From a virus: 35,952 nt of DNA. Every line of letters begins with the position of its first letter. Positions within the stretch are counted from its first letter, which is position 1. This document shows positions 1,854 through 20,972 of the stretch, in pieces. Location of the stretch: positions 1 through 35,952 of the IMG/VR virus record IMGVR_UViG_3300045421_000168. The stretch is one strand, 5' to 3'. The notes below the pieces were generated by a model, which was given only the letters and a program-made list of their open reading frames with translations, was not told the DNA's origin and did no database searches. Both the position numbers and the translations under genes were made by a program.

Positions 1854-2044
1854 TGGGTTCGTTCGTTCATGATGACCTCGATTTGATCAGCGATCTCATC
1901 GAGGGTTGGACATGGCGTCTTGGACGCGTCGTGCATCTCCGCGGTAGTGCGGAGCATCTGCAGAATGGTGCGCGCGCCTTCCTCAAACGCTTGCTGATGA
2001 AGGCGCTGCAGTTGACGGATGGTGAGCCACCGCCCGTCAATCAC
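1850..2044 (-). CDS. Small conserved-looking protein of the recombination operon
   Basis: I do not recognise this protein. The frame can start at an ATG at 2089, but that overlaps the exonuclease by 53 nt. A GTG at 2042-2044 (reading VIDGRWLTIRQLQRLHQQA) overlaps the exonuclease stop by only eight bases and is preferred, giving 64 residues. It is predicted to be mostly helical and charged and has no membrane segment or metal site. The stop shares ATGA with the RecT-like start, so it is translated as part of the recE-recT operon. A small accessory role in recombination is possible from position alone. Confidence 0.55.
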   Translation of the reverse strand: MIDGRWLTIRQLQRLHQQAFEEGARTILQMLRTTAEMHDASKTPCPTLDEIADQIEVIMNERTQ

Positions 2045-3007: not shown

Positions 3008-4405
3008 ATGGCTGTTTCGCTTCGACCCTTTCAAGCTGATGCCGTCGCCGAGATCCGCGGCGCATATATGGCCGGCCACCGCCGCGTGCTGTTTGTTCTG
3101 CCGACCGGCGGCGGCAAGACCTACACGTTCGTCTACATCGCTGAGCAGGCCGCCATCCGCGGCAACCGCGTCTGCATCCTCGTCCACCGCCAAGAACTCG
3201 TGGATCAGGCCAGCCGCTCCCTGCATGCCATCGGCTGCAATCACGGCATCATCGCCAGCGGCTACCGCCAGGACCTCTCCCAAGGCGTGCAGGTGGCCAG
3301 CGTCCAGACCCTAGCCCGGCGCCTTCACCAACTCCCCGCCGACTTCTTCCAGCTGCTGATCGTCGATGAGGCCCACCACGCCGTCGCCGGCACCTGGGCC
3401 AGGGTGCTGGCCGCCATGCCCCGCGCTCACGTCCTGGGCGTCACCGCAACGCCCGAGCGCCTGGACGGCCGCGGCCTTGGCGATCAGTTCGAGCTACTGA
3501 TCGAGGGCCCTGACGCCGCCTGGCTAACCGCGAACGACTTTCTCGTGTCGGCTCGCATATTTGCGCCCCCAGGCATCGACCTCTCGGGCATCAAGCGCTT
3601 CGACACCCGCAAGGGCCACGACGAGGCCGAGGCCCGACTGCGCCAGGGCCAGGCCATGGGCGATGCCGTCACGCACTATCGCCGCTCGATTAAGCCGCAC
3701 CACAACGGCACCGCTATCGCCTTCTGCGTTTCCGTCGCGCACGCCGACGCAATGGCCGAAACCTTCCGCACCCAGGGTATCGCCGCCGCCATGCTCGATG
3801 GCTCAATGGATCGCAACCAACGCCGCCGCCTCATCAACGACCTTAGCGCCGGTGTGCTCAAGGTGCTCACCTCCTGCGACATCGTTTCCGAAGGCACCGA
3901 CATTCCATCCGTCACCGGCGCAATCCTGCTGCGACCCACCGACAGCCTGGGCCTGCATCTGCAGCAGGTCGGCCGCGTGCTCAGGCCCTGTCCAGGCAAA
4001 ACCCACGCGATCGTTAACGACCACGTCGGCAACACGCTCCGCCACGGCCGCCCCACCGATCCCCGCGACTGGAGCCTTGAGGGACGCACCAAGCGCGGCA
4101 AGCGCTCAGCATCCAATGCCTTGCCGGTGAAAGTCTGCCCGCAGTGCTTCGCCGCCATGCTCTCCTCCGTCGCTATCTGCATCGATTGCGGCTTCAAGTT
4201 CCCGACCGTCCAGCGCCGTGAGCTCACCGTCGTCGATGGTGACCTGCAGGAGCTGCCAGCTTCCGTGATCGCACGCCGTCGCCGCGTCGAGGTGGGCCAG
4301 GCACGCACACGCGAAGAGCTCGAAGCCATCCGCTTGGAGCGTAACTACTCTCGCGGCTGGACCGATCACATCTTGAGGGCACGGAATGGCAGGGCGTTCA
4401 GATGA
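3008..4405 (+). CDS. DEAD/DEAH-box (SF2) helicase with zinc ribbon
   Basis: A 465-residue superfamily 2 helicase. RecA-like domain 1 has LRPFQADAV, Walker A LPTGGGKT (31-38), Walker B DEAH (120-123) and TAT (146-148). Domain 2 has FCVSVAHADAMAETF, a TSCDIVSEGTDIPS motif V and LQQVGRVLRP motif VI. A C-terminal CPQC...CIDCGF zinc ribbon (about 376-396) precedes a basic tail. Proteins of this Rad25/UvsW-like type remodel forks, recombination intermediates or R-loops. It leads the rightward replication operon and overlaps the following VRR-NUC gene by 20 nt, suggesting a helicase-nuclease pair. All core ATPase motifs are intact. Confidence 0.9.
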   Translation: MAVSLRPFQADAVAEIRGAYMAGHRRVLFVLPTGGGKTYTFVYIAEQAAIRGNRVCILVHRQELVDQASRSLHAIGCNHGIIASGYRQDLSQGVQVASVQTLARRLHQLPADFFQLLIVDEAHHAVAGTWARVLAAMPRAHVLGVTATPERLDGRGLGDQFELLIEGPDAAWLTANDFLVSARIFAPPGIDLSGIKRFDTRKGHDEAEARLRQGQAMGDAVTHYRRSIKPHHNGTAIAFCVSVAHADAMAETFRTQGIAAAMLDGSMDRNQRRRLINDLSAGVLKVLTSCDIVSEGTDIPSVTGAILLRPTDSLGLHLQQVGRVLRPCPGKTHAIVNDHVGNTLRHGRPTDPRDWSLEGRTKRGKRSASNALPVKVCPQCFAAMLSSVAICIDCGFKFPTVQRRELTVVDGDLQELPASVIARRRRVEVGQARTREELEAIRLERNYSRGWTDHILRARNGRAFR

Positions 4406-4806: not shown

Positions 4807-5052
4807 ATGACGATCAAACCCGAAACAGCCATCCACCAGCTCCGCAAGCTCTACCGCGACGCGCACCACTGCGAGCCCGCCACTGATCAGCACGCCATCG
4901 ACTGGGCCGCAAAACCCGAGAGATGGGCCGAGTACGAAATACGTTTTCACAACAAATCCTGGTACGTCTGCGAGGCCACCGTGCGTGAAGCGCGTCGTCT
5001 GCACAACCGCATCCAGGCCGCCAACCTGCCTCTGCAGCAGGAGGCTCAGTGA
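4807..5052 (+). CDS. Small unknown protein of the replication operon
   Basis: An 81-residue protein beginning MTIKPETAIHQLRKLYRDAH. It is soluble and helical, with an aromatic-rich middle (RWAEYEIRFHNKSWYVCEA) followed by a basic helix. I do not recognise a family. The start is uncertain: another in-frame ATG at 4771 would add 12 residues, and neither has a strong ribosome site. The stop overlaps the next gene's start region. Position between a nuclease and the primase suggests a replication accessory, nothing more. Confidence 0.55.
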   Translation: MTIKPETAIHQLRKLYRDAHHCEPATDQHAIDWAAKPERWAEYEIRFHNKSWYVCEATVREARRLHNRIQAANLPLQQEAQ

Positions 5053-5249
5053 TGTTCGGAACACGCCGCAAGCAGCCCCCGATGCTTCCCTTCACCGTCA
5101 CAGCTCGGCGTCAAGACAAACCGCCAATCCGCATAGGCATCATCGCCCCATCAGTTGTCGACGCCACCCTTATCGCTCAGGAGCTGTTCCCTAATCAAAT
5201 CATCAGCATCGCATCCATTGAGCCTAAATGGCAGGACGACCCAGCATGA
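5052..5249 (+). CDS. Small unknown protein
   Basis: A 65-residue protein starting at ATG 5052 behind a good ribosome site (GGAGG at 5040-5044, 7 nt upstream). The ATG shares its first base with the preceding TGA. The N-terminus is basic, followed by a hydrophobic beta-like stretch (IRIGIIAPSVVDATLIAQEL) resembling a small alpha/beta unit. No family is recognised. It overlaps the next gene by four bases if that starts at 5246. Confidence 0.55.
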   Translation: MFGTRRKQPPMLPFTVTARRQDKPPIRIGIIAPSVVDATLIAQELFPNQIISIASIEPKWQDDPA

Positions 5250-5449
5250 CCACCGACACTGAACTGCGCGTCCTTGAGCTGCGGGACTCCGTGGCTTGGG
5301 CTGCTGGCGTCGGCTACGAACGCCGCCGCATTGGCGAGGTGCTTAGGCAGCGTGCATTGCTTTTAGAACACATGCCGGGTTCCACACCGCGTGTGGTCGT
5401 TAAAGAGCTCCGCCGCTTGGCGGATGACATCGACCGGGAACCGACTTGA
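5246..5449 (+). CDS. Small unknown helical protein
   Basis: A 67-residue, highly charged, mostly helical protein (MTTDTELRVLELRDSVAWAA...). The ATG at 5246 shares ATGA with the stop of the previous gene and has AGGAC upstream, so it is preferred over the in-frame ATG at 5228. The stop is 3 nt before the primase start, placing it firmly in the operon. Function unknown; a small adaptor or regulator of the primase is possible only from its position. Confidence 0.55.
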   Translation: MTTDTELRVLELRDSVAWAAGVGYERRRIGEVLRQRALLLEHMPGSTPRVVVKELRRLADDIDREPT

Positions 5450-5452
5450 CGC

Positions 5453-7651
5453 ATGACGCTGCTCGATCAACTCCAGGCCTTGCCTGATGACTGGGCACTA
5501 GTCGCAGTGGGCAACAACAAGCGCCCCTACCAACTCAACTGGCAAAACAGCCCACTCACCAAAGATCAAGCCGCGGCCGAGATCCGATCAGGTCGAGCCA
5601 AGGGCATTGGTGTTCTCGCTGGCCCTGCATCCGGGGGCCTGCTGTTCGTCGATCACGACGGCATCAGCGCCACCGAGGTCCTAGAGCGCATCGGCGCGCC
5701 TTTGCGCGAGCTTCCTAAATCCATCGCAGTCACATCAGGCCGTGACGGCCGCTTTCAGATTGCCTACCGCGTTCCAGTCCAGTTTTGGCAGGCAATGGTC
5801 GGCCGACGCGTCATTAAGTCCGGCAAAGAGGACGCCGAAGGCAAGGCAGAGCAGTTGGAGCTTCGCTGGGTTGGCTGCCAGTCCGTGGTCATTGGCGCGC
5901 ACCCCACCACTTCCGGTTACCGCTGGCTCAAAAGCCGCGCGCCTTATGAGCAGGCCTTGGCCGACGCGCCCCTGGTGCTCATCGAGCAAATGCTCGACAC
6001 CCCCGACCCCAAGTTTGCACCGCTTCTGTCCCAGCAGGCGGCGGGGCCGCCTGCTGCACCCGCGATCGCCGGCGAGGTGCCCTTCCTCGACTTCATCACA
6101 CGCGACAGCCGCCAGCTGATCGAATCCGGCGGCGCACCCGGCCAGTGGAACGACGATCAGCTCCGCCTTGCGCTTGACCTCAAGGGCACCGAGACCTGGT
6201 TGCTAGCTCAAGGCGTCAGGCCCAACCTCAGCGCCTCCGGCGCCTTCGCCCTGCACGTCGCAGCAGCACGCAACAAGGCCCGCGACTTTGACGAGAAGAA
6301 GGCCTGGCATCGCTTTAACGGCGCCGACAAGCACAGCCCGCACCCGGCCACGCCGATCGAGAAGCTCCTGCAGCGCCTCGCTTTCCACACCCGCACCACC
6401 AGGCCGCTCCTGCCATCACCGGCGCCGCACCGCCAGCAGCCGGAGCAGCCCGAGCCCGTCGCCCCTGCAGCGCCAGCGTCGGAGCAGCCCTACGCACCCT
6501 CCTTCTCCAAGCCCAACAAGCTTGAAGCCGGTGAGCTGCTCGCCATGCTCCGCAATCAAGCCGCCGGCGGCCGCATACGCTTCAACCGCTACTCTCAGCA
6601 GGTCGAGCTCGACGGCAGCGTTCTCGAAGGCGCTGAGCGCTTTTACCTCACCCTCGCCGAGCAGGGCTTCAAGGTTTCGAAGGATCTCGCCCTCGATTGC
6701 CTTATTCAGGTCGCCCACGAGAACCCCTACGACCCCGTCCGCCTGTACCTTGAACACGTCGCAGCCACCGTCAGCCCCACCTACATCGGCGGCCTCGCAA
6801 CCGCTTACCTCCGCCCCGAAGACGCCGCAGCCAGCGAGCCCACGCTCTACGACCAAATGCTTCGCTGCACGCTGATCGGCGCCGTCCGGCGCATCTTCGA
6901 GCCCGGCTGCAAGCACGACACCGCCTGCGTGCTCATGGGTGACCAGGGCGCCCGCAAGTCCTCGTTCTGGTCGGCCCTCGGCGGCCCCTTCTTCTCCGAC
7001 GCCCTGGGCGATATCAGCTCAAAGGACGACCTGATGGTGCTCCACCGCTCTTGGATCATGGAATGGGCTGAGCTCGATCACATCACCGGCCGCAAGCACG
7101 CTGGCCACGTGAAAGCCTTCCTTAGCCAGTCGACCGACCTGTTCCGCGTCCCCTACGGTAAGGCCACCGAGGCCTTTCCCCGCCGCGGCATCATCGTCGG
7201 CTCGACCAACCGCTCCACCGGCTTCCTGGTGGACGACACCGGCAACCGCCGCTTCTGGGTCATCCCTACCACCCTCACCGAAGCCGACCCGATCGACACC
7301 GGCACCCTCATGGCCGAACGCGACGCCATTTGGTCCGCAGCCGTTTACGCCTACCGCGCTGGCGAGGCCAATTACCTCCCCGCGCACCTGGCCGACCAGG
7401 TCAACCAGGAGAACGAGGGCTACCGCGTCGACAACCCCTGGCTGCCGGCTGTGCAGCAGTGGCTCGACCAGCGCGTCTTTGGCGAGCAAGTCACCACCGA
7501 GCGCATCCTCATTGAGGCCATCCAAAAGCCCATCGAGCGGCAGACCCGCGCCGATCAAATGGCCGTCGCAGATCTGCTCAGCACCCTCGGCTACGCCCAG
7601 AAGCGCATCAGACAGGAGGGCGTCCGCGCGCGCGTCTGGGTCAAGCCCTGA
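5453..7651 (+). CDS. Primase-polymerase / VirE-type ATPase replication protein
   Basis: A 732-residue replication initiator-like protein. The N-terminus (about 1-190) is a bifunctional primase/polymerase (Prim-Pol) domain: KGIGVLAGPASGGLLFVDHDG carries the metal-binding acidic residues, followed by the SGRDGRFQIAYRV strand. A PriCT-like helical region (about 215-300) and a Pro/Ala-rich linker (about 320-350) follow. The C-terminal half is a VirE/VapE-type P-loop ATPase: GDQGARKSSFW (about 496-506), Walker B region HRSWIMEWAELDH, and GSTNRSTGFLVDDTGNRRFWVIP with the arginine-finger region. The usual Gly before Lys in Walker A is Arg (GARKS), which is odd. It probably primes and unwinds phage DNA. 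A 9-bp repeat array starts just after its stop, matching initiator-next-to-origin logic. Confidence 0.85.
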   Translation: MTLLDQLQALPDDWALVAVGNNKRPYQLNWQNSPLTKDQAAAEIRSGRAKGIGVLAGPASGGLLFVDHDGISATEVLERIGAPLRELPKSIAVTSGRDGRFQIAYRVPVQFWQAMVGRRVIKSGKEDAEGKAEQLELRWVGCQSVVIGAHPTTSGYRWLKSRAPYEQALADAPLVLIEQMLDTPDPKFAPLLSQQAAGPPAAPAIAGEVPFLDFITRDSRQLIESGGAPGQWNDDQLRLALDLKGTETWLLAQGVRPNLSASGAFALHVAAARNKARDFDEKKAWHRFNGADKHSPHPATPIEKLLQRLAFHTRTTRPLLPSPAPHRQQPEQPEPVAPAAPASEQPYAPSFSKPNKLEAGELLAMLRNQAAGGRIRFNRYSQQVELDGSVLEGAERFYLTLAEQGFKVSKDLALDCLIQVAHENPYDPVRLYLEHVAATVSPTYIGGLATAYLRPEDAAASEPTLYDQMLRCTLIGAVRRIFEPGCKHDTACVLMGDQGARKSSFWSALGGPFFSDALGDISSKDDLMVLHRSWIMEWAELDHITGRKHAGHVKAFLSQSTDLFRVPYGKATEAFPRRGIIVGSTNRSTGFLVDDTGNRRFWVIPTTLTEADPIDTGTLMAERDAIWSAAVYAYRAGEANYLPAHLADQVNQENEGYRVDNPWLPAVQQWLDQRVFGEQVTTERILIEAIQKPIERQTRADQMAVADLLSTLGYAQKRIRQEGVRARVWVKP

Positions 7652-7656
7652 AGCGT

Positions 7657-7933
7657 GTCCCAACCTGACGCCTTTTAAGGTTGGGACATGTCCCAACCTC
7701 TTTTTTTGCGCAAAAACCTTGCAGCCACTGCGTTTTGCGCTGCGTGTCCCAACCGGCCCGTGACCCAACCTATTCCCAAGACTTCCAAATCCCTATCCCC
7801 CCCTTCTTTCTACTATTTATTCCTTTTAGGTTGGGTAGGTTGGGACAGTAAGGGACAACTCAGGCCACGACTGGGGTTTAAGCGTCCCAACCTCCCCGCT
7901 AAGGTTGGGACAAGGTTGGGACAAGGTTGGGCC
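7657..7933. repeat. Iteron-like array of GGTTGGGAC / GTCCCAACC (candidate origin)
   Basis: Eleven 9-bp units lie in 277 bp. Exact GTCCCAACC at 7657, 7690, 7746 and 7884; exact GGTTGGGAC at 7679, 7838, 7903 and 7914; one-base to two-base variants at 7762 (GACCCAACC), 7829 (GGTTGGGTA) and 7925 (GGTTGGGCC). The last three form a direct tandem of an 11-bp unit with AAG spacers. The centre (about 7775-7830) is free of exact units and is pyrimidine-rich and AT-richer on the top strand, like an unwinding element. A separate inverted repeat GCGCAAAA/TTTTGCGC spans 7708-7740. Position directly after the primase-ATPase gene fits an iteron origin; an operator cluster for a repressor is the alternative. 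Confidence 0.75.
7678..7707 (+). terminator. Intrinsic terminator-like hairpin after the primase gene
   Basis: Repeat copies 2 and 3 form a perfect 22-bp palindrome (7678-7699) that is followed at once by C and seven T (7701-7707). A GC-rich stem plus T-run is the form of a rho-independent terminator for the replication operon. The stem is made of the iteron unit, so it may serve both as terminator and protein-binding site. Copy 1 (7657-7665) could pair with copy 2 instead and abolish the terminator stem. Confidence 0.65.
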
Positions 7934-7972
7934 ACCCTCATCACGACTACCCTGGCCCTAGGAGGCTCACCC

Positions 7973-8524
7973 ATGGCCGTCATCGACATCAGCGCCCGCG
8001 TCATCGGCGACACCGAGCTGGCTCAAACCCTCTCGCGCCTATCCGCCCACGACATCCCCAAGGCCATCCGCGCTGGCGTCCGCGACGCTGCACGAGCAGG
8101 GCGCACCACCATGGCTAAGTCGATCGGTCAGCGCTACTCGCTCAGCGCTGGCCGCATTAAGCAAGACGTCCCCAACGCACGCTTCATGGCAGGGGGGCAG
8201 ACCGCGATCATCACCACCAGCCGCAAGCCCATCACCGCCATGCAGTTCAAGCCCAGGGAAACACGGGCAGGCCTGGCCATGAGCATCTACCGGGGGGAAA
8301 GGACCGTGGTGAAGTCGGGCTTCATCGCCAAAGGCCTGCCCTTCAAGCGCCGCGGCAAAGAGCGCATGCCCCTTGACGTCATCCACGGCCCCTCCATCCA
8401 CGCCATCTACACGGGCGGCAAGTGGGCCCCAGCCCTCCAGGCACGCACTGAGGTGCGCATTGAGGAAGCCCTCCAATCAGGCGTCATCCGCAGCCTGCAA
8501 GGCATGGGCCGCGGTTTTGGCTAG
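7973..8524 (+). CDS. gpZ-like phage tail protein, displaced
   Basis: A 183-residue protein resembling lambda gpZ (Minor_tail_Z). It has an N-terminal helical region with IPKAIRAGVRDAARAGRTTMAKSI, a region with SLSAGRIKQDV, then basic beta segments (AGLAMSIYRGERTVVKSGFIAKGLPFKRRGKERMPLDVIHGPSI) and a C-terminal helix. The start ATG has a perfect AGGAGG at 7960-7965, 7 nt upstream; the frame is open further back across the repeat array but that part is not protein-like. gpZ acts in completing the head-proximal end of the tail and in lambda lies between FII and U. Here it lies upstream of the cos candidate, while no Z is present between the FII-like and U-like genes at 21319 and 21630. Confidence 0.7.
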   Translation: MAVIDISARVIGDTELAQTLSRLSAHDIPKAIRAGVRDAARAGRTTMAKSIGQRYSLSAGRIKQDVPNARFMAGGQTAIITTSRKPITAMQFKPRETRAGLAMSIYRGERTVVKSGFIAKGLPFKRRGKERMPLDVIHGPSIHAIYTGGKWAPALQARTEVRIEEALQSGVIRSLQGMGRGFG

Positions 8525-9720: not shown

Positions 9721-10236
9721 ATGGCCAAGCGCATCGAGCTGTGGCCGGTCGAGCGGCTCGTGCCCTACGAGCGCAACGCGCGGACGCACAGCCCGCAGCA
9801 GGTAGCGCAGATTGCGGCCTCAATCTCCGAGTTCGGATTTCTGAACCCAATCCTTGTCGACAGCAAGGACGGGATCATCGCGGGCCACGGCCGGCTGGCG
9901 GCGGCAAAGGACATGGGCCTGGTCGAGGTGCCGGTGGTAGTGCTCGATCACCTGACGCCGGCGCAACGAAAGGCCTACGTCCTTGCGGACAACCGCATCG
10001 CACTGAACGCCGGCTGGGACGTGAGCCTCCTTGCCGAGGAGCTTGCTGGCCTTCAGCTTCAGGAGTTCGACCTCGACCTCCTCGGCTTCGACGAGAAGGA
10101 GCTTCAAGGGCTCCTCGACCCCGAGCAGATCGACAGCGAAGGCCCGCCCGACGAGTTCAAGGAGGTCGACGACGACATTGAGACCGAGCACCGCTGCCCG
10201 AGCTGCGGCTACGAGTGGAGCGGGAAGACGAAATGA
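9721..10236 (+). CDS. ParB-like N-terminal domain protein
   Basis: A 171-residue protein with a ParB/Srx-type domain at residues 1-95: PVERLVPYERNARTHSPQQV, ISEFGFLNPILVDSKDGIIAGHGRLAAAKDMG and VEVPVVVLDHLTPAQRKAYVLADNRIALNAGWD. An acidic segment follows, and it ends with a possible half zinc site CPSCGYEW. ParB-like domains of this type commonly adjoin DNA methyltransferases and may bind DNA or nucleotides. Start is uncertain: ATG 9721 fits the usual domain start, but in-frame ATGs at 9691 and 9697 exist and none has a good ribosome site. Its stop shares ATGA with the methyltransferase start, so the two are coupled. Confidence 0.8.
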   Translation: MAKRIELWPVERLVPYERNARTHSPQQVAQIAASISEFGFLNPILVDSKDGIIAGHGRLAAAKDMGLVEVPVVVLDHLTPAQRKAYVLADNRIALNAGWDVSLLAEELAGLQLQEFDLDLLGFDEKELQGLLDPEQIDSEGPPDEFKEVDDDIETEHRCPSCGYEWSGKTK

Positions 10237-11294
10237 CGAAGCCTCCCTACCGGGTGCCGTCGATGAAGGAGATCGAGGCGCTGCCGTGGAACGGCTACCG
10301 CGTCGCCTCGACCTTCTCCGGCTGCGGCGGCTCGTGCCTTGGCTACCGGATGGCGGGCTACCGCGTTGTTTATGCGAACGAGTTCATCGAGGAGGCGCAG
10401 CGGACTTACAAGGCCAACCATCCGAAGAGCTTCCTCGACATCAGGGACATCCGCCAGGTCAAGTCAGAGGATGTACTAGAGAAAGCGGGCGTCGATCGCG
10501 GCGAGCTTGACCTCTTTGACGGCTCGCCGCCGTGCTCAGCGTTTTCGACAGCCGGGAAGCGCGAGGCCGGATGGGGCAAGGTCAAGGCCTACAGCGACAA
10601 GGCGCAGCGGGTTGACGACCTGTTCTTCGAGTATGTGCGGCTGATTGACGGGATCCGGCCGAAGGTCTTTGTCGCGGAGAACGTCAGCGGCCTGGTGAAG
10701 GGGACAGCGAAGGGCTACTTCAAGCGGATCCTCGCGGCGCTACGTGAGCCGGGCTACCGCGTGAGCTGCCGCGTGCTCGATGCGCAGTGGCTTGGCGTTC
10801 CGCAAATGCGGGCCCGAACGATCTTCGTCGGCGTGCGGGATGACCTCGGGCTCGATCCGGTTCACCCGGCGCCGTTGCCCTACCGCTACACGGTCGGCGA
10901 GGCCGTCGAGGGGCTAGCGGCCGATGGCGAGGCGAAGCGGCTCAAGCCTGGAACCGACACGCACCGCTACTGGCTGGCGACGCGCCCGGGTGACTCGCTG
11001 TCAGATGCGTGCAAGCAGCTGACCGGGAAGAACAGCTTCCTGACACACGTGAAGCAGTCGCCGCACCGTCAGGCGAACACGATTACCCAAGGCACGCAGC
11101 AGCTTTACCATTGGGCCGAGCCCCGGACACTGAGCCTGCAAGAGCTCCGGCGCGTCGGTGGCTTCCCCGACGACTTTGAGCTGACCGGCGACTTCACCCA
11201 GCGGTGGGAGCGGATCGGCCGGGCTGTTCCTCCCCTGATGATGGCCCGCATCGCCAAGCACGTTGAGGAGAACATCCTGCGATGTGTGGCTTAG
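10233..11294 (+). CDS. C5-cytosine DNA methyltransferase with Arg in motif X (possible carboxymethyltransferase)
   Basis: A 353-residue C5-cytosine methyltransferase. Motif I STFSGCGG (26-33) binds the SAM-type cofactor; motif IV SPPCSAFS has the catalytic Cys101; motif VI AENV is at 148-151; motif VIII QMRAR at 191-195; the target-recognition region is about 215-300; motif X is near 326-334. In motif X the nearly invariant Asn of GN(S/A)VPP is replaced: the protein reads GRAVPP with Arg330. From the literature as I recall it, changing this Asn to a basic residue in M.MpeI allows use of carboxy-SAM. A CmoA-like gene lies two genes downstream. The preferred ATG 10233 overlaps the ParB-like stop; the gene overlaps asnB by 13 nt. 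Methylation of cytosine is the default alternative. Confidence 0.9.
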   Translation: MTKPPYRVPSMKEIEALPWNGYRVASTFSGCGGSCLGYRMAGYRVVYANEFIEEAQRTYKANHPKSFLDIRDIRQVKSEDVLEKAGVDRGELDLFDGSPPCSAFSTAGKREAGWGKVKAYSDKAQRVDDLFFEYVRLIDGIRPKVFVAENVSGLVKGTAKGYFKRILAALREPGYRVSCRVLDAQWLGVPQMRARTIFVGVRDDLGLDPVHPAPLPYRYTVGEAVEGLAADGEAKRLKPGTDTHRYWLATRPGDSLSDACKQLTGKNSFLTHVKQSPHRQANTITQGTQQLYHWAEPRTLSLQELRRVGGFPDDFELTGDFTQRWERIGRAVPPLMMARIAKHVEENILRCVA

Positions 11295-12649
11295 CTGGCG
11301 CCATCAACGAGAGCCCACGGGTCGTTGCCGGGATGCTGGACCGCATCCAGCACCGTGGCCCTGATGGCCAGGGCATCAAGGAACATGATGCAGCTGTTCA
11401 TGGCCACGTGCGCCTAGCGCTGGTCGATCTGTCGGCTGCATCGAGCCAGCCTTTCATCCGCGCATCCAACACTCTGACCTTTAATGGGGAGATCTGGAAT
11501 CACAACGCATTGCGCGCTGAGCTGAAAGCTGCTGGCGTTGAGTTCGTGACGATCGGAGACACCGAGGTGCTGGCAGCAATGCTGGAGCGCTATGGCCTGG
11601 AGTGCCTTCAACGGCTCGATGGGATGTTCGCCTTCGCCTGGAGCGATGCCAGGAACAATCACTGGCTGGTGCGCGATGCGTTCGGGAAGATCCCTGTCTA
11701 TCTAGCTAAGACGAATAAGGGCTACTTGTGGGCCTCTGAGCGCAAGGCCTTCCCGTCAGGCGTCAAGCCGATCGCGGTGCCACCTGGCTATGCCTTCAAC
11801 CTTGTCACCGGCGAATGGCGCTACTGGTATCAGCTGCCAGGCGCAGCACCGATGGATGCAGCCGCCCTGCTGGGTCATTTGCGCGCTGGCGTTCGGAAGC
11901 GGCTCACGGCCGATGCTCCTGTCTGCTGCCTGATCTCTGGCGGCTTGGACAGCAGCATCGTCCTGGCGCTGGCCAAGGAGATGAGCCCTTATGTCACGGC
12001 CTACACCGCTGTCCATTCCAAGCGCTCTGCCGACCTGAAATCGGCGCGGCGCATTTGCTCTGACCTGGGCGTGAAGCTCGTCGAGGTCGATGTGGCGTTC
12101 TCCCGTGACGCGATTGAGGATGCGCTCTACTCGATCGAGATTTCGAGCAAGGCGCAGATAGAGATCGCTGCGCTCTGCATCCCTCTGGCGCGCCGGATCT
12201 ATGCCGATGGTTTCCGGGCTTGCCTGTCCGGCGAAGCTGCCGATGAGCTGTTCGGCGGTTACGGCAACTTCTGCATCAAGGCTTCCAAGGCGAACGATGC
12301 AGATATCGTTGCGCTGCGCCGAGCCCAGCTGAGCAAGATGGCGCGCGGCAACTTCGTCAGATGCAACAAGGCTTTCATGGCAGCTGGCGTCGAGTGTCGG
12401 CTGCCCTTCATGGAGCAGCCCCTAGTCGAGGCGGCGATCCAGCTGTCCAAAGCTGATTCACCGCCAGGCAAGGGCCTGCTCAAGGCAGCCGCCCGCTCGG
12501 TGCTCCCGTCCTGGGTGATCACTCGAAAAAAGGACACGTTCCAGGGCGGCAGCGGCATGTCTGACACCGTGGCCGGACAAGTGGCCAATCCCATCGTTTT
12601 CTACAACACCGAACTCCGCAAGGCGTTCGGCTACCTCCCTAAAGACTGA
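11282..12649 (+). CDS. AsnB-like glutamine-dependent amidotransferase
   Basis: A 455-residue class II amidotransferase of the asparagine synthase family. The glutaminase domain (1-185) has the N-terminal nucleophile Cys2 (MCGLAG), RGPDG, R44, FNGE (67-70) and GDTE (92-95), all expected for glutamine hydrolysis. The synthetase domain has the ATP pyrophosphatase loop SGGLDSS (219-225) and SGEAADELFGGYG (316-328). It would adenylate a carboxylate and convert it to an amide. The segment corresponding to the strongly conserved ETYDVTTIRASTP of true asparagine synthetases reads quite differently here (about 285-301), and the protein is about 100 residues shorter than E. coli AsnB. A substrate other than aspartate is thus likely; a carboxymethylated base is my suggestion from context. 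Confidence 0.88.
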   Translation: MCGLAGAINESPRVVAGMLDRIQHRGPDGQGIKEHDAAVHGHVRLALVDLSAASSQPFIRASNTLTFNGEIWNHNALRAELKAAGVEFVTIGDTEVLAAMLERYGLECLQRLDGMFAFAWSDARNNHWLVRDAFGKIPVYLAKTNKGYLWASERKAFPSGVKPIAVPPGYAFNLVTGEWRYWYQLPGAAPMDAAALLGHLRAGVRKRLTADAPVCCLISGGLDSSIVLALAKEMSPYVTAYTAVHSKRSADLKSARRICSDLGVKLVEVDVAFSRDAIEDALYSIEISSKAQIEIAALCIPLARRIYADGFRACLSGEAADELFGGYGNFCIKASKANDADIVALRRAQLSKMARGNFVRCNKAFMAAGVECRLPFMEQPLVEAAIQLSKADSPPGKGLLKAAARSVLPSWVITRKKDTFQGGSGMSDTVAGQVANPIVFYNTELRKAFGYLPKD

Positions 12650-13302
12650 TGGACATCCCCACTAACTGGACCTTCGAGACTGCTGGCGTCGCCGCTGGGT
12701 TCGATCGTCACGTCCGCGAGCAGCTGCCGTGGTACGACCTGGCCACAAATGCGGTCACGCACATTGCCCGGCACTACATCCCGGAAGGCGGGCTGGTCTA
12801 CGACCTCGGCGCCGCAACTGGGAACATCGGCCGGGCGATCGCGCCGGTCCTTGCGGATCGTCAGGCGCGGCTGATCGGGATCGAGCCATCGGCGGAGATG
12901 GTGAAGCGCTACGAGGCGCCTGGCGAGATCGTCTGCGCGAAGGCTGAGGACGTCGATTTCGAGGCCTTTGATCTCGCGGTCGTTTTCCTGACGCTGATGT
13001 TCATCGAGCCCAGGAAGCGCGTGCAACTGATGAACCGGCTACGGCACGCCTGCCGTCCTGGCGGAGCGATCGTCGTCTTTGACAAGCTTGAACCAGTCGG
13101 CGGCTACCTAAGCACGGTCTTCTACCGCCTGACCCTTGCGGGCAAGCGCGCGGCCGGCGTGCCGTCTGAAGAGATTGTCGAGAAGGAGCTCAGCCTTTCC
13201 GGGGTGCAACGGCCGATCGTCGAGAGCCAGCTTGGCGGCGAGTCCTACCTGTGGTTCAAGTTCGGCGACTTCGCCGGCTGGGTGATCGAGAGGCCCGCAT
13301 GA
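12649..13302 (+). CDS. CmoA-like SAM-dependent enzyme (candidate carboxy-SAM synthase)
   Basis: A 217-residue class I Rossmann methyltransferase-fold protein. It aligns by eye with E. coli CmoA along most of its length: WTFETAGVAAGFDRHV, QLPWYD (Tyr29 matching CmoA Tyr39), VYDLGAATGN (cofactor loop, 50-59), LTLMFIEPRKRVQLMNRL (114-131), RPGGAIVVFDK (136-146), and YLWFKFGDFAGWV at the C-terminus matching ELWFQCFNFGSLVA. CmoA makes Cx-SAM from SAM and prephenate for tRNA wobble-uridine modification. By gapless local alignment CmoA Arg199, which holds the carboxylate, falls on Glu180 here, and a helix of about 8 residues is missing. No CmoB partner is seen; a DNA methyltransferase is the neighbour. 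An ordinary small-molecule methyltransferase is the alternative. The start overlaps the asnB-like stop by one base. Confidence 0.75.
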   Translation: MDIPTNWTFETAGVAAGFDRHVREQLPWYDLATNAVTHIARHYIPEGGLVYDLGAATGNIGRAIAPVLADRQARLIGIEPSAEMVKRYEAPGEIVCAKAEDVDFEAFDLAVVFLTLMFIEPRKRVQLMNRLRHACRPGGAIVVFDKLEPVGGYLSTVFYRLTLAGKRAAGVPSEEIVEKELSLSGVQRPIVESQLGGESYLWFKFGDFAGWVIERPA

Positions 13303-13694: not shown

Positions 13695-13971
13695 AGTCGC
13701 GCGGATCGCCTACGGCTGCCAGTGGGATGACGACGGGCATATGAAGGCCTGGCCGATGCAAATCACCTTTGGGCCGAAGGGCCCCGAGGTGACGGTGGAC
13801 GGAATGCTCGAAGGCCGCGGCCACACGGTGATGCTGATCGACCAGCTCGTCGAGTTGGTAAGCCGGATCACGCCGCAGGAGACGCCGATCCAGCTAGTGC
13901 AGCCGGCGCCCTATGGTATTGCGCAAAAGCTAATTAGCCGAGGCTTCTTCGTCGAGCTGCTTTACGACTAA
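13687..13971 (+). CDS. Unknown small protein before the terminase genes
   Basis: A 94-residue protein (MIEVARIAYGCQWDDDGH...), starting at ATG 13687 and overlapping the previous stop by eight bases. It is acidic to neutral, with beta-like strands (MQITFGPKGPEVTVDGM) and a C-terminal helix, and no membrane segment. No family is recognised. Its stop shares one base with the terminase small-subunit start (TAATG), so it links the cassette to the packaging operon. Confidence 0.6.
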   Translation: MIEVARIAYGCQWDDDGHMKAWPMQITFGPKGPEVTVDGMLEGRGHTVMLIDQLVELVSRITPQETPIQLVQPAPYGIAQKLISRGFFVELLYD

Positions 13972-14519
13972 TGGCGCTGATCAAGGCGGCGGCGTTTGCG
14001 GCTCGGATGTGCGTCAGCCCCCAGGCTGTGCGCAAGGCGATCAGCGTGGGGCGGCTAAAGGAGTCAGTCACACGAGAGGGGCGTGGGTATCTGATCGACG
14101 ACGAGGCCGGTGTTGCGGAGTGGGATCGAAATACGGCGCCGCAGTTTCAGCGCGGGCGTATGGTAGCCAGGCAGCAGGCCGCCGCTGCAGCGGTGACGCC
14201 GCCGCCGGCAGGGCTGCAGAGCAAGATCCCGAGCCAGGCGCAGGCCGCATCGGTGCGCACCTGGTATCAGGCGAAGCTGCTAGAGCTCGATCTCAAGCAG
14301 CGCAACGAGGAGCTGGTGCCGTCTGCGGACATGCAGCGCGTGCGCTACGAATCGGGCCGGCGCGTGCGTGATGCGATCCTCCGTTTGGGCCCGCTGATGA
14401 TCGGCGAGATCGCGCGTGCTGCTGGTGGGCTGTCGCCAGAGCAGCGCTCGGAGGTGCTGCTCGTGATCGAGCGGCATCATGTGAAGGCGTTGGAGGCGCT
14501 CGCCGATGGCAACGGCTGA
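13971..14519 (+). CDS. Terminase small subunit, Nu1-like
   Basis: A 182-residue protein with the Nu1 layout. The N-terminal helix-turn-helix is FAARMCVSPQAVRKAISVGRL (8-28) with a wing GRGYLIDDEAGVAEW; a Gln/Ala/Pro linker follows. The helical C-terminal region WYQAKLLELDLKQRNEELVPSADMQRVRYESGRRVRD and LSPEQRSEVLLVIERHH would contact the large subunit. It should bind cosB-type sites to position cutting. Overlap with the large subunit is 14 nt. Unlike lambda, its gene is about 4.4 kb from the cos candidate. Confidence 0.9.
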   Translation: MALIKAAAFAARMCVSPQAVRKAISVGRLKESVTREGRGYLIDDEAGVAEWDRNTAPQFQRGRMVARQQAAAAAVTPPPAGLQSKIPSQAQAASVRTWYQAKLLELDLKQRNEELVPSADMQRVRYESGRRVRDAILRLGPLMIGEIARAAGGLSPEQRSEVLLVIERHHVKALEALADGNG

Positions 14520-16416
14520 GTGGATCGAGCGCTCGTTCTGGCAGGGGCTGCGCCCTGACCCGCTGCTGACGGTGAGCAAGTGGGCGGATCAGCGGCGCAT
14601 GCTGAGTCCGAAGGCCAGCAGTGAGCACGGGCAATGGCGCACCAGCCGGACGCCGTACCTGCGCAAGGCGATGGACGACCTGAGCGCGACGAGCAGCGTG
14701 CAGGAGGTTGTGCTGGTGTTCGGCGCCCAGATGGGCAAATCGGAAATGCTCAACAACTGGATGGGCTACGTGATGGACATCCAGCCGGGGCCGTCGTTGT
14801 TTGTGCAGCCGACGATCGATTTAGCAAAGCGCTACAGCCGGATGCGGATCGCGCCGATGATCGAGGCGACGCCGAGCCTGCAGGAGAAGGTGGCGGCGCC
14901 GCGCGAGCGCGACTCGGGCAACACGATGCTGATGAAGGAGTTTACCGGCGGCTTCCTCATCCTCGGGGGCGCGAACGCGGCGAGCGGCCTGGCGTCAATG
15001 CCGATCAGGTTTCTCGGCGGCGACGAGATTGACCGCTGGCCGTCGGATGTGGATGAGGAAGGCAGCCCGCTGGCGATTGTGACGGCGCGAACGCGGACCT
15101 TCGGCGTGCGCAAGAAGATGGCGTGGACCTCGACGCCGACGATCGCGGGCCGCAGCCAGATCTGGGCGAAGTGGGAGGAGAGCAACCAGCAGCGGCTGCT
15201 GCTGCCGTGCCCGCACTGCGGCCATCGCCAGCTGATCAGTTGGGACCGGATCCACTACAACCCAAAGGATCCAGGTCTGCCGAACACGCTTCACACGCCG
15301 CCGGTGATGTTCTGCGAAGAGTGCGGCGCTGCAATCGAGGAAGACACAAAGGCCTGGTGGTACGACCCGGATGTGTTCGACGACGACTGGTGGGAGGCTG
15401 ATCAACCCGATCGGTTGGTGCAGGGCTATCACTGCTCGGCGCTCTACAGCCCCCTCGGCTGGTTCAGCTGGACGGAAGCGGTCGTCGGCTACGAGAAGGC
15501 GAAGGACAACCCGGCCGATCTGAAACCGTGGACGAACACGGTGCTGGCCGAATGCTGGAACGAAGACGGCGAAGCGCCGGACTGGGAGGCGCTCTACAAC
15601 CGGCGCGAGGGCTACGAGCTGGGCACGGTGCCCGACGAGGTGGTGTTCATCACCTGCGGGGTTGACGTGCAGAAGGACCGCCTGGAGCTGGAGGTCGTCG
15701 GCTGGGGCCCGGGGCTGGAGAGCTGGAGCCTCGACTACCAGGTGCTCGCGGGCGACACGGCGGAGGCGGAGGTGTGGCGCGAGCTTTCAAAGTTTGTGCG
15801 CTCAGAGTTTGGCCTCGGCGATGGCCAGAGGCTGCCAATCAGGATGACGGCGATCGACACCGGCTTTCGCAGCGAGGAGGTGAAGCGCTGGGTGCGTAAG
15901 CAACCGGCAAACCGTGTGATCGCGGTCAAGGGCGTCGAGAGTCAGATCAACGTGATCGGTACTCCGGCGCGTCAGGACGTGACGCAACGAGGCAAGCTGA
16001 TGAAGGGCGGCGTTAAGGTGTGGCCGGTAGGCGTCAGCACCGCGAAGAGCGAGCTTTACGGCTGGCTTCGCCGCCGGCTGCCGGAGGAAGAAAGTGAGCC
16101 GCTGCCGCATGGCTGGTGCCACTTCCCGCAGCATGGCGAAGAGTATTTCAGGCAGCTCTGCGCCGAGCGGCTGACGAACACGATTGACCGCCGGGGCTAC
16201 ACGAAGTTTGAGTGGGTGAAGACGCGGCCGCGCAACGAAGCGCTCGACTGCCGGGTCTATGCCCGCGCCGCGTGCGCGCTGGTGGGCGCTGATCGCTGGA
16301 GCGACGATCGCTGGGAGCAGGAGCATCAGGGCGCCGGTAGCGTGCGACCTCACCCAGCGCCAGCGGCCGTTGAGCAATCTCAGCCGCGGAAGCGGCGCGA
16401 GTCTTCAATCTGGTGA
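14506..16416 (+). CDS. Terminase large subunit, GpA-like
   Basis: A 636-residue GpA-family packaging motor and nuclease. The N-terminal ATPase has a Walker A-like FGAQMGKSE (72-80) and Walker B FLGGDEID (169-176). A coupling TSTPT motif follows at about 209-213. Then a zinc-type pair CPHCGH and CEECGA sits in the middle, and the nuclease domain starts at TCGVDVQKDRLE with an acidic metal ligand. A C-terminal stretch of Pro/Arg-rich residues may contact the portal. Length is near that of lambda gpA (641). It cuts cos and drives DNA into the head using ATP. Confidence 0.95.
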   Translation: MATAEWIERSFWQGLRPDPLLTVSKWADQRRMLSPKASSEHGQWRTSRTPYLRKAMDDLSATSSVQEVVLVFGAQMGKSEMLNNWMGYVMDIQPGPSLFVQPTIDLAKRYSRMRIAPMIEATPSLQEKVAAPRERDSGNTMLMKEFTGGFLILGGANAASGLASMPIRFLGGDEIDRWPSDVDEEGSPLAIVTARTRTFGVRKKMAWTSTPTIAGRSQIWAKWEESNQQRLLLPCPHCGHRQLISWDRIHYNPKDPGLPNTLHTPPVMFCEECGAAIEEDTKAWWYDPDVFDDDWWEADQPDRLVQGYHCSALYSPLGWFSWTEAVVGYEKAKDNPADLKPWTNTVLAECWNEDGEAPDWEALYNRREGYELGTVPDEVVFITCGVDVQKDRLELEVVGWGPGLESWSLDYQVLAGDTAEAEVWRELSKFVRSEFGLGDGQRLPIRMTAIDTGFRSEEVKRWVRKQPANRVIAVKGVESQINVIGTPARQDVTQRGKLMKGGVKVWPVGVSTAKSELYGWLRRRLPEEESEPLPHGWCHFPQHGEEYFRQLCAERLTNTIDRRGYTKFEWVKTRPRNEALDCRVYARAACALVGADRWSDDRWEQEHQGAGSVRPHPAPAAVEQSQPRKRRESSIW

Positions 16417-16448: not shown

Positions 16449-16649
16449 ATGTCGCTGTTCACTGAGGCTAGCTTGCTGGCAGTCGAAGAGGCCATTGCCG
16501 GCGGCTACCTAAAGGTCCGTTACGACGACAAGGAAGTCACCTACCGCAGCATTGACGAGCTGCTTAAGGTGCGCGACCTGATCCGCTCAAAACTGGGGCA
16601 GGGCACGCAGAGCCGCCGCTACTTCGCCTTTCAGAGGGACACCCAATGA
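16449..16649 (+). CDS. gpW-like head-tail joining protein
   Basis: A 66-residue protein with the gpW pattern: an N-terminal helix (LLAVEEAIAGG), a beta hairpin (YLKVRYDDKEVTYRS) and a second helix (IDELLKVRDLIRSKL). gpW plugs the portal after packaging. ATG 16449 is chosen because GAGGAGG (16434-16440) lies 8 nt upstream; an in-frame GTG at 16440 lies within that site. Position between terminase and portal is that of lambda W. It overlaps the portal start by four bases. Confidence 0.9.
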   Translation: MSLFTEASLLAVEEAIAGGYLKVRYDDKEVTYRSIDELLKVRDLIRSKLGQGTQSRRYFAFQRDTQ

Positions 16650-18139
16650 GCGCCTTCGAAAATCTGATTGCTGCGGTGAGCCCTGCTGCTGCGCTGAATC
16701 GCGAGGCGGCCCGCGTGCGACTTGAAGCGCTGCGCCGGTATGAGGGCGCGAGCCGCGGCCGCCGCACGGATGGCTGGCGCACGAGCGGCACGAGCGCCGA
16801 CGCTGCAGCGGCGCCGGGGCTAAAGATGCTGCGCGATCGCTCGCGTGATCTCGTGCGCAACAACCCCTACGCCTCTAAGGCGGTGCAGGTGATCGTCTCC
16901 AACACCATCGGCACCGGCATCGTGGCCCAGGCGCGCGCGCAACGCAGCCGGCGCCGCAGCCAGCAGTTCACGGATCTGTGGCTCAACTGGGCGCTCGATT
17001 CGCGCCAGTGCGACTACGACGGCCGGGCCGACTTCTACGGCCTGCAGGCCTTGGCGATGCGCTGCATCGTCGAAAGCGGCGAAGTGCTGATCCGGCGCCG
17101 GACGTCGTCAGGCCAGCGCGTGCCGCTGCAGCTGCAGATCATGGAGCCCGACTTCATTGACACGACGAAGGACGTGGCGCTCGCCGATGGCGGGCTGATC
17201 AAGCAAGGCATCGAGTACGACGGCAGCGGCCGCCGCGTCGCCTACTGGCTCTACGCCGAGCACCCGGGCGAGCAGCATCTGCGCATGACCGACTTCCTCA
17301 GCAGCCGCGTGCCGGCCGAGGAGATCATCCACGTCTACCGTCAGGATCGCCCGCATCAGACGCGCGGAGTTCCCTGGGCATCCCCGATCATCATCCGGCT
17401 GCGCGACTTCGACGATTACAGCGATGCGCAGCTCCTGAAGCAGAAGATCAGCGCTTGCTTCACGGCCTTCGCTGTGGATACTGAGTCGCCGGAAGGCGGC
17501 GCCGACATGCCGTTCGACAAGCTCGAACCCGGCGCCGTCGAGATCTTGCCGCCCGGCAAGGACATCCGCTTCGCCAACCCTCCGACCGTCGGCGAGTTCG
17601 ACAAGATTAGCCGCCAGTATCTCCTCCAAATCGCAGCCGGCTTCGGCGTCACCTATGAGGCGCTGACCGGCGACCTAACTAACACCAATTTCAGCAGCGG
17701 TCGGATGGGCTGGCTGGAGTTCCAGCGCAACATCGAAGCCTGGCGCTGGCAGATGCTGGTGCCGCAGATGCTCAACCCGGTCTGGCAGTGGTTCAGCAAT
17801 GCGGCGACGGTGAACGGCGCGCGGATGGAAGGCATCACGGCGCAGTGGACGCCGCCGCGTCGTGAGCTGATCGACCCGAGCAAGGAGATAGCCGCGACTA
17901 TTAAGGCGGTACGCGGCGGCCTGATCACGCTGAGCGAGGCGATCCGCGAATACGGATACGACCCAGAGGAGGTCATGCTGGAAATGCAGCAGGACAACGA
18001 GCGGCTTGACGCCCTGGGCCTGGTGCTTGATAGCGACCCGCGGAAAATGAGCGGCGCCGGCAACTTGCAGCAGCAGGGCGCGGATCAGGCGACTGAGGCT
18101 GCGCTTCGCGCGCTGACCGATGACCTCCAGCGCCGCTAA
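16646..18139 (+). CDS. Phage portal protein, lambda family
   Basis: A 497-residue lambda-family portal. Features are an N-terminal basic region ([23 protein letters not shown]), the [31 protein letters not shown] segment typical of gpB, and [13 protein letters not shown]-type loop [20 protein letters not shown], and [20 protein letters not shown] near the tunnel helix. Twelve copies would form the DNA gate at one head vertex and hold terminase. The C-terminal Gln-rich part overlaps the collagen-like gene by 20 nt. Confidence 0.95.
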
Positions 18140-19103: not shown

Positions 19104-20972
19104 ATGAGCGACCAGCTACTGCAAACCCGGGCGATGTTCGCACCCGAAACCGTGAACGCGGAAGCGCGCACGGTCGAGGTGGTGTGGACCACTGGCACCA
19201 GGGTTCAGCGCTACGGTATGGACGGCTCCTTCATCGAGGAGCTGTCGATGGACGCGAAGGCGATCCGCATGGACCGCCTGAACGCCGGAGCTCCGCTGCT
19301 CAACAGCCACAGCGCCGCCCAACTCTCCGACGTCGTCGGTGTGGTCGAGCGCGCCTGGCTGCATGGCAACGAGGGCCGCGCCGTGGTGCGCTTCTCCAGC
19401 CGGGACGACGTGACGCCCATCTTCAACGATGTGCGCGACGGAATTATCCGCAACATCAGCGTCGGCTACCGCGTCTGGAAGTACGAACGCGCGGAAGAGG
19501 GGGGAACCCCGCTGATGCGTGCTGTGGACTGGGAGCCGCACGAGCTGTCCCTGGTTCCGATCCCGGCCGACGCCGGGGCGCAGGTGCGCTCAGATGAACC
19601 GCCTACACTTAACACCAAGCCTGAAAAGGACAGCCCAATGGACGAAATCCGCGAACTGGAAGGCGTCACGACTCCCGAGCCCCCTGTGGCTGAGGTGCGT
19701 GCCGCTTCCCCCGAGGACATCCAGGCTGCCATCGCCGCTGAGCGTCGTCGGGTGGCGGAGATCCGCCGCTCCGTTCGCGCCGCTGGGTTGGACATGGCCC
19801 TGGCAGATCAAATGGAGCAGGACGGCACTTTGATCGAAGCTGCCCGTGCTGCCGTCATCGACAAGATGGCCGAGCGCGAAGCCGCTGCCCCCACTCGCAC
19901 TCATGTGCAGGTGATGGCGGACGAAGGCGAGAAGCGCAGCGCCTGTATGAACGCCACCCTGGAAGCCCGCTGCGGCCTGCGCCAGTGGGATGATCAAGCC
20001 CGCGCCTATGGCCACAGCTCGCTGATGGACATGGCGAAGGACGCCTTGATGCGTTTCGGCGTGTCCCTGGTAGGCATGAGCAAAAGCGAGATTGCCGGCC
20101 GTGCGATGCACAGCACCAGCGACTTCCCGCTGCTGCTCTCCAACATCGCCAACAAGAGCCTGCGCGGCGCCTACGAGGCCGAGGTGCAAACCTTCCGCCC
20201 GCTGGCCCGTCAGCGCAACCTGCCCGACTTCAAGCCCGTCTACGAGCTGGAGATCGCCGGCCAAATCACCCCTGAGCCCCTGCTCGAAGGCGGTGAGTAC
20301 AAGGCCGCGACCGTGCAGGAGCAGCAGAGTTCCTGGCGGATCTACACCTACGGCAAGAAGATCGCCGTCACCCGCCAGCTCATCATCAACGACGACCTGG
20401 ACGCCCTGAGCCGCATCCCTCAGATGATCGGCCGCGGCATGAGCCTGTTCGAGTCCAACGAGGTGTGGAAGCTCATCACTTCCAACGCCGCGATGAGCTA
20501 CGACAACAAGGCCCTGTTCCACAACGATCACAAGAACCAGGGCACTGGCGTGATCGGCGTGACCGCCATCAGCGACGCGCGCAAGAAGCTGCGGAACCAG
20601 ACCGACATTGCTGGCAACCGGATCAACCTGCGCCCCACCTACCTGGTGGTGCCGACCGCTCTAGAAACTGCCGCCGAGCAGTTCCTGAGCCCGATCCAGC
20701 CCACCCAGACCAGCAACGTCAACATCTTCACCCAGAAGCTGCAGCTCATCGCTGAGCCCCGCCTGGATGATGCGAGCGAGGCTGTCTACTACGTGACCGC
20801 CAGCCCTGAGCAGATCGACATGATCTCCTTCGGCTACCTCGATGGTGAGGCCGGCCCGCAAGTCGAGACCGTGAACGAGCGCGATCCCGACGGGACCGTG
20901 ATCTACGCACGCCTCGACTTCGGTTGCACCGTGACCAACCACCGGGGCTTATACAAGTCCACCGGCGTCTGA
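19104..20972 (+). CDS. Prohead protease / major capsid protein fusion
   Basis: A 622-residue fusion. Residues 1-165 are an HK97-type serine protease: LNSHSAAQLSDVVGVV with His69, then IRNISVGYRV with Ser119, then WEPHELSLVPIPAD. Residues about 180-300 are a charged helical scaffold-like part. Residues about 330-622 form the major capsid protein (DFPLLLSNIANKSLRGAYE, TFRPLARQRNLPDF, LIINDDLDAL, GRGMSLFESNEVWKLI). Proteolysis would remove the front parts during maturation. Because capsids need hundreds of shell subunits but few protease copies, the likely internal start at 19638 is important. No gap exists to a separate capsid gene, so this gene must supply all shell protein. Confidence 0.92.
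   Translation: MSDQLLQTRAMFAPETVNAEARTVEVVWTTGTRVQRYGMDGSFIEELSMDAKAIRMDRLNAGAPLLNSHSAAQLSDVVGVVERAWLHGNEGRAVVRFSSRDDVTPIFNDVRDGIIRNISVGYRVWKYERAEEGGTPLMRAVDWEPHELSLVPIPADAGAQVRSDEPPTLNTKPEKDSPMDEIRELEGVTTPEPPVAEVRAASPEDIQAAIAAERRRVAEIRRSVRAAGLDMALADQMEQDGTLIEAARAAVIDKMAEREAAAPTRTHVQVMADEGEKRSACMNATLEARCGLRQWDDQARAYGHSSLMDMAKDALMRFGVSLVGMSKSEIAGRAMHSTSDFPLLLSNIANKSLRGAYEAEVQTFRPLARQRNLPDFKPVYELEIAGQITPEPLLEGGEYKAATVQEQQSSWRIYTYGKKIAVTRQLIINDDLDALSRIPQMIGRGMSLFESNEVWKLITSNAAMSYDNKALFHNDHKNQGTGVIGVTAISDARKKLRNQTDIAGNRINLRPTYLVVPTALETAAEQFLSPIQPTQTSNVNIFTQKLQLIAEPRLDDASEAVYYVTASPEQIDMISFGYLDGEAGPQVETVNERDPDGTVIYARLDFGCTVTNHRGLYKSTGV
19626..19640 (+). promoter_or_regulatory. Internal ribosome site and start inside the protease-capsid gene
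   Basis: AAGGA (19626-19630) lies 7 nt before an in-frame ATG (19638-19640, Met179 of the fusion). Starting here would yield a 444-residue scaffold-capsid protein without protease. Lambda makes its scaffold Nu3 from an internal start in the protease gene in a similar way. The site would solve the subunit-ratio problem of a protease-capsid fusion. Confidence 0.55.

Follow-up and report, generated by a model that had tools for sequence, protein, structure and literature searches.

Positions 9721 to 13302 of virus record IMGVR_UViG_3300045421_000168, a 35,952-base stretch that was analysed whole and is referred to here as the window, carry four overlapping plus-strand open reading frames (ORFs), all of them present, for a ParB-domain protein, a cytosine-5 methyltransferase (MTase), an AsnB-type amidotransferase and a CmoA-like protein. 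It is highly likely that this cassette specifies a pathway, of the CmoA-CmoX-CmoY kind, by which the phage hypermodifies cytosines in its DNA, with 5-carbamoylmethylcytosine as its predicted product and probably with the effect of hiding the DNA from host nucleases. A first-pass annotation of this DNA had described the same four genes, in agreement with the ORFs and with their Pfam matches: ParB_N (4.8e-07) in the ParB protein, DNA_methylase (5.1e-56) in CmoX, GATase_6 (7.3e-34) and Asn_synthase (1.3e-40) in the amidotransferase and Methyltransf_25 (3.1e-10) in the CmoA-like protein. The trio has been known since December 2025, and the window is a further member of its glutaminase-type ligase branch.

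The published pathway is that of Synechococcus phage S-B43 (Yang et al., Nat Commun, December 2025; PMC12783734), an article that is drawn on here in part. The S-B43 trio makes 5-carboxymethylcytosine (5cxmC) and its glycine amide: SpCmoA produces carboxy-S-adenosylmethionine (Cx-SAM), SpCmoX, which as wild type accepts Cx-SAM only, forms 5cxmC at GC, and SpCmoY, the sole CmoY characterised in that account, adds glycine (PMC12783734). Arg350 of SpCmoX replaces Asn304 of M.HhaI and touches the carboxymethyl group, the catalytic cysteine is C98 in an SPPC motif, and HhaI was blocked in vitro by SpCmoX (PMC12783734). Engineered M.MpeI N374K is also a carboxymethyltransferase, in which exchanging the motif X Asn for a positively charged residue permits the use of Cx-SAM (PMC12783734). 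The article further reports 5,615 CmoX candidates with ParBc neighbours, whose role it calls unknown, and a second-largest ligase cluster, with A0A7T0Q3R0 as its named member, that has a glutamine-hydrolysing domain and for which ammonia was inferred as the substrate (PMC12783734). By its domains the window cassette fits this cluster, which resembles it in a glutamine-hydrolysing domain within a CmoX/CmoA context and in its ParBc neighbours, A0A7T0Q3R0 being known here by description alone. The term carbamoylmethylcytosine was absent from the 20 papers listed out of 51 matches, in a search whose scope left out bioRxiv preprints and most subscription journals.

We infer for the window proteins the same activities as those of their homologues, for which the Cx-SAM and 5cxmC steps and glycine ligation have been demonstrated (PMC12783734), together with an ammonia step and a protective role. 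CmoA would convert S-adenosylmethionine (SAM) and prephenate to Cx-SAM. The PPC cysteine of CmoX would attack C6 of the target cytosine in phage DNA and the carboxymethyl group would be moved to C5, with the CmoX arginine holding the Cx-SAM carboxylate. Next, the amidotransferase would use ATP to activate the carboxylate of the new group. Ammonia channelled from glutamine by the class II glutaminase domain of the enzyme would then yield 5-carbamoylmethylcytosine. As the amide is neutral, the charge that 5cxmC carries would be lost, and host nucleases are probably kept from recognising the phage DNA; protection from restriction in this phage is plausible. The first-pass annotation had proposed this route from Cx-SAM through a carboxymethyl group to an amide, and the proposal gains support from the S-B43 homologues, whose cap is glycine (PMC12783734); the ammonia step and its carbamoylmethyl product are predictions for the window.

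Residue signature of the amidotransferase

The window amidotransferase matched Escherichia coli AsnB (1CT9) at 7.8e-53 and resembles it in domain order and in its glutaminase and ATP-site residues. Its nucleophile is Cys2, the ATP motif SGGLDS lies at residues 219-224 and the other glutaminase positions are present, in keeping with the intact class II enzyme described in the first-pass annotation. The two proteins differ at AsnB Val320 and Arg324, where the window has Lys290 and Glu294. The window also has AQIE where AsnB has TTIR, the aspartate-binding segment of that enzyme. The best PHROG match of the amidotransferase was 16728, which has no function assigned.

Conservation was assessed in 56 distinct glutaminase-type sequences, the window included. 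Across the two ligase types, 20 duplicates and 7 matches in loci set aside for lack of CmoX had been removed beforehand, as had 5 incomplete-length rows among the short ligases and 2 short and 2 broken rows among the glutaminase-type ones. Cys1, Arg30, Gly31, Arg49, Gly75, Glu76 and Asp98 (AsnB numbering) were kept in all 56 sequences and Asn74 in 54, and the SGG(L/V)DS motif, Glu348, Asp351 and Lys449 were likewise kept throughout. Retention of the glutaminase positions suggests that this domain is under selection. Val320 and Arg324 were replaced by Lys and Glu in 56/56 sequences. The same Lys/Glu pair was found among the short glycine-type ligases, proven SpCmoY included, in all 25 rows compared (41 collected). 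These 25 ligases also share an SKKA block; the corresponding residues of the glutaminase type are YGNF, each found in 14 to 16 of 16 rows.

Because the Lys/Glu pair is common to both ligase types, it points to one shared acid substrate, 5cxmC in DNA, which the pair may serve to recognise; the SKKA block is a candidate glycine carboxylate site. Judged from these alignments, the intact glutaminase domain and the missing SKKA block argue for ammonia over glycine.

For comparison, 20 usable ORFs were obtained from 29 loci with other AsnB-like genes. Lys and Glu occurred together in one of these 20 controls (L055), whose contig carries a CmoX homologue elsewhere; control L205 was unaligned at the pair position and L131 was aligned there only partly. 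The latter gene, from Achromobacter phage Motura (L131 5001-6281), is flanked by annotated QueC and tRNA-guanine transglycosylase genes, showed no Lys/Glu pair in its partial alignment and possibly serves an amide step in a 7-deazaguanine pathway. Separately, the amidotransferase of two cassettes (L053 and L103) was seemingly broken into two frames, by sequencing error or decay, and CmoA was split as well in L053.

CmoX, CmoA and their linkage

The best PDB match of the window CmoX was 8YF3, SpCmoX with Cx-SAM (E 6.8e-69), with M.HaeIII behind at 1.9e-25. The motif X arginine reported in the first-pass annotation is R336 when counted from the GTG start and R330 when counted from the ATG; in the alignment it falls on R350 of SpCmoX. 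The catalytic Cys107 (GTG numbering) aligns with the SPPC cysteine, C98 of SpCmoX, within the same motif. As in engineered M.MpeI N374K, a positive charge replaces the motif X Asn, although that enzyme is laboratory-made and has Lys whereas the window CmoX has Arg.

With the window excluded and full ORFs considered (n=124, 108 distinct), Arg was present at the motif X position in 107/108 distinct CmoX ORFs, and the remaining one (L126) ends before this position. Control MTases were 13 phage C5-MTases picked from 100 listed rows. Arg was found in none of the 10 that had no CmoA in the fetched flanks, of which 8 had Asn and 2 Met. The MTase of phage PaBG, which CmoA adjoins, has Arg, as does that of Erwinia phage pEa_SNUABM_17, whose CmoA lies elsewhere in the genome. 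The first-pass annotation had held that homologous cassettes lacking the motif X change would speak against its proposal; with the exception of an SPbeta-like pairing described below, the cassettes carried the change.

The CmoA-like identity given in that annotation agrees with the top PDB matches of the protein (4GEK at 2.5e-14, 4IWN and 1IM8), with its top NCBIfam match, TIGR00740 (1.8e-18, under the cut-off), and with PHROG 4752 (4.8e-50), which is named tRNA methyltransferase. When 139 phage or viral rows were aligned with E. coli CmoA (140 rows), Tyr39, Asp62, Gly64, Phe137 and Lys198 (E. coli numbering) were invariant; the last corresponds to Lys179 of the window.

Linkage is most fairly judged from loci found via CmoX alone, of which 80 were kept out of 161 confirmed. 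CmoA adjoined CmoX in 79 of these 80, and the contig of the 80th stops inside CmoX; the pairing is thus not due to chance. ParB was present in 76/80, and in the 4 loci without it the contig or locus begins within about 0.8 kb of CmoX. With X, Y and A for CmoX, CmoY and CmoA, the orders were ParB-X-A in 29 loci, ParB-Y-X-A in 25, ParB-X-Y-A in 21, Y-X-A in 4 and ParB-Y-X in 1. In a wider set, which includes loci found via the amidotransferase or CmoA, control phages and some contigs twice, CmoA was found in 165/168 CmoX loci, and the glutaminase-type gene, where present, stood between CmoX and CmoA as in the window in 63/65. The two other orders were ParB-A-X-Y (L047) and ParB-Y-X-A (L054).

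Among GenBank phages, 18 of the best 23 CmoX rows (H67-H89) were also among the listed CmoA matches, and two more (PaBG) have CmoA annotated next to CmoX; the remaining 3, from Erwinia phages SNUABM_1 (two records) and phB78, were not among the listed CmoA matches. Gene orders in isolated phages were ParB-X-Y-A with a glutaminase-type Y in TurkishDelight, ParB-X-A in Moraxella phage Mcat8 and ParB-X-A plus a short Y in PaBG. Genes 122-125 of Streptomyces phage TurkishDelight (NC_073473.1) have the window order, and identity to the window proteins is 50.3% for X and 36.7% for Y, but they belong to a 93.6-kb Streptomyces phage, and their CmoA is only 31.2% identical. The S-B43 pathway is like that of the window in that the three functions are clustered, CmoX has the Arg and the PPC Cys, CmoA has Glu at the Arg199 position and the ligase has Lys/Glu. 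It differs in that its CmoY is 271 amino acids (aa) long, lacks a glutaminase domain and adds glycine, in its order (A-Y-X), and in that a ParB homologue was not found in the 12.6 kb fetched.

Alternative explanations

Several observations weigh against a pathway ending in 5-carbamoylmethylcytosine. For the last step, no soluble glutaminase-type enzyme was obtained in the published work (PMC12783734). The window amidotransferase passed the cut-off of TIGR01536 (asparagine synthase) with 279 bits against 267.1. In two AsnB-like controls, L204 (Gln/Glu) and L217 (His/Asp), the residue at the Arg324 position is acidic although the Lys is absent, so that Glu alone is not special. For the earlier steps, the CmoA-like protein scored 67.1 bits against the TIGR00740 cut-off of 193.3, of which proven SpCmoA also falls short (115.6 bits), and a Staphylococcus phage SPbeta-like locus (L141 3294-4993) has CmoA beside a C5-MTase with Gly, not Arg, a pairing that is either another way of using Cx-SAM or chance.

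A further point of this kind concerns Arg199 of E. coli CmoA, which forms a salt bridge to the Cx-SAM carboxylate and is taken as a mark of Cx-SAM binding in the part of the source used here (PMC3663124). This position is Glu180 in the window and also Glu in proven SpCmoA; across the 139 phage or viral rows it was Glu in 120, Arg in 14, Lys in 3, Ala in 1 and Ser in 1. Further E. coli cofactor contacts are changed in the window protein, which has, for instance, Lys in place of Asp117 and Phe in place of Asn132. Since SpCmoA works with Glu, phage CmoAs must hold the carboxylate otherwise, and the invariant Lys198 is a candidate for this role. The Arg199 criterion counts against filing the window protein as CmoA, not against its function, and does not define phage CmoA. 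As a test it failed in the window and in SpCmoA alike, and hence it was not used to reject the protein.

With these points weighed, it is unlikely that glycine or some other amine is attached in the last step, with 5gcxmC or a related base as the product, and that the glutaminase domain is a relic or has another purpose. Such a step would match the only CmoY characterised (PMC12783734) and the Lys/Glu pair common to both ligase types, but the glutaminase positions are kept across all 56 sequences, Asn74 in all but two, and the glutaminase type lacks the SKKA block seen in the glycine-type ligases. Very unlikely, in turn, is an amidotransferase that works as a normal asparagine synthetase or on some other metabolite, which would leave the DNA with 5cxmC only. 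The NCBIfam equivalog cut-off and the existence of close cassette relatives without the amidotransferase would fit this explanation; against it stand the replacement of Val320/Arg324 by a pair also found in a proven DNA ligase, SpCmoY, and the near-constant position of the gene between CmoX and CmoA. The NCBIfam name was set aside on these two grounds, residue replacement and gene linkage. Finally, we give almost no credence to an MTase that uses plain SAM to make 5-methylcytosine beside a CmoA-like plain methyltransferase with another job, for example on tRNA: the Arg199 change, the sub-threshold family score and the SPbeta-like pairing of CmoA with an Arg-less MTase would suit it, but SpCmoA lacks Arg199 as well and is a Cx-SAM synthase, SpCmoX with the same Arg takes Cx-SAM only (PMC12783734), and CmoA accompanies CmoX in 79/80 loci.

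Probable turnover of the capping step

To examine the distribution of the last step, 125 distinct CmoX sequences were placed in a quick maximum-likelihood tree; of these, 50 were accompanied by a glutaminase-type ligase, 44 by a short ligase and 31 by neither. Duplicates were removed and 12 loci were dropped (5 with short CmoX, 4 scored as having no ligase and lacking ParB, 2 without CmoA nearby and 1 cut); the broken copy L103 was scored as glutaminase type. The last-step state requires 14 changes on this tree, compared with a mean of 57.7 for shuffled labels. Well-supported branches alone force fewer changes (4, 5 and 8 when each of the three labels is considered by itself), support being by Shimodaira-Hasegawa-like approximate likelihood ratio test (SH-aLRT) only and several rows being long-branched.

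The window and two amidotransferase-bearing relatives (support 95) nest in an 11-row clade (support 99) whose other 8 rows have no ligase. The neighbouring 16-row clade (support 100) has a short ligase in 12 rows and none in 4. Among the loci with no ligase nearby, 11 that lie on larger contigs or genomes were searched over their whole sequence; 0/11 matched either ligase type, while the same searches recovered their positive controls (4/4 and 4/4). Two of these 11, L062 and L074, belong to the clade of the window; its other ligase-less rows are mostly short contigs, in which a ligase could lie elsewhere. L060, L062, L063, L068 and L074 carry ParB-X-A and, after it, homologues of the small and large terminase of the window, which is the window arrangement minus the amidotransferase.

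A lone Asn_synthase (PF00733) match, weak, was seen in L099; the ORF concerned has SGGQDS, a QueC-like motif. This ParB-CmoX-CmoA phage contig also has QueE-, QueD- and QueC-like genes (4961-7162), named by eye from their opening residues, and its phage may have both 7-deazaguanine and 5cxmC-type DNA.

It is fairly likely, in our estimation, that the system is modular, with a CmoA/CmoX core that is kept and a cap (ammonia, glycine-type or none) that is swapped repeatedly among close relatives, as if changing coats against host enzymes able to read the earlier one, and that the window makes 5-carbamoylmethylcytosine, the DNA counterpart of tRNA 5-carbamoylmethyluridine.

Genome setting and the ParB partner

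The cassette sits upstream of the terminase genes (Table 1). The ParB gene ends at 10236 and overlaps the ATG at 10233, for which reason CmoX probably starts there, with GTG 10215 as a possible alternative.

Table 1. Cassette genes and other features of the window
Feature	Position	Strand	Detail
ParB-N-domain protein	9721..10236	+	171 aa from ATG 9721; open frame extends back to ATG 9691
CmoX, predicted Cx-SAM-dependent DNA cytosine-5 carboxymethyltransferase	10233..11294	+	353 aa (ATG 10233); 359 aa (GTG 10215)
CmoY, glutaminase type: class II amidotransferase + synthetase	11282..12649	+	455 aa
CmoA-like predicted Cx-SAM synthase	12649..13302	+	217 aa
RecT-like and exonuclease VIII-like genes	1095-2846	-	family-library match
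Helicase	3008-4405		family-library match
Primase/helicase	5453-7651		family-library match
Tail-completion/neck protein	7688-8524		family-library match
Small and large terminase	13971-16416		family-library match
Portal	16646-18139		family-library match
Capsid/protease	19104-20972		family-library match
Tail sheath	33175-34587		family-library match

The ParB-domain protein, which is the usual partner of CmoX, matched PHROG 620 (2.8e-61) and ends in a CxxC tail, CPSCGYEW. A CxxC within the last 45 residues was found in 121/124 distinct ParB neighbours of CmoX, which suggests metal binding, possibly at a zinc site.

No dinucleotide depletion was seen in the window as a trace of the target site (observed/expected 1.22 for GC and 1.10 for CG), an uninformative result. 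No host of the phage was indicated; a pattern-based contig scan for amidotransferase relatives, which can miss relatives, gave 24 loci with best segment identities of 23-40%.

Significance

Although the pathway as such is already known, the product of its glutaminase-type branch is so far a prediction, and the window and its relatives add to the natural variants of an enzyme of which the first representative tested proved insoluble. New here is a residue signature, Lys/Glu shared and SKKA differing, that separates the two ligase types. The pairs of close relatives with and without the capping gene are material for measuring how the cap affects restriction. If the last step is indeed swapped again and again, this would suggest a core modification that is more stable over time than the chemistry on the outside of phage DNA.

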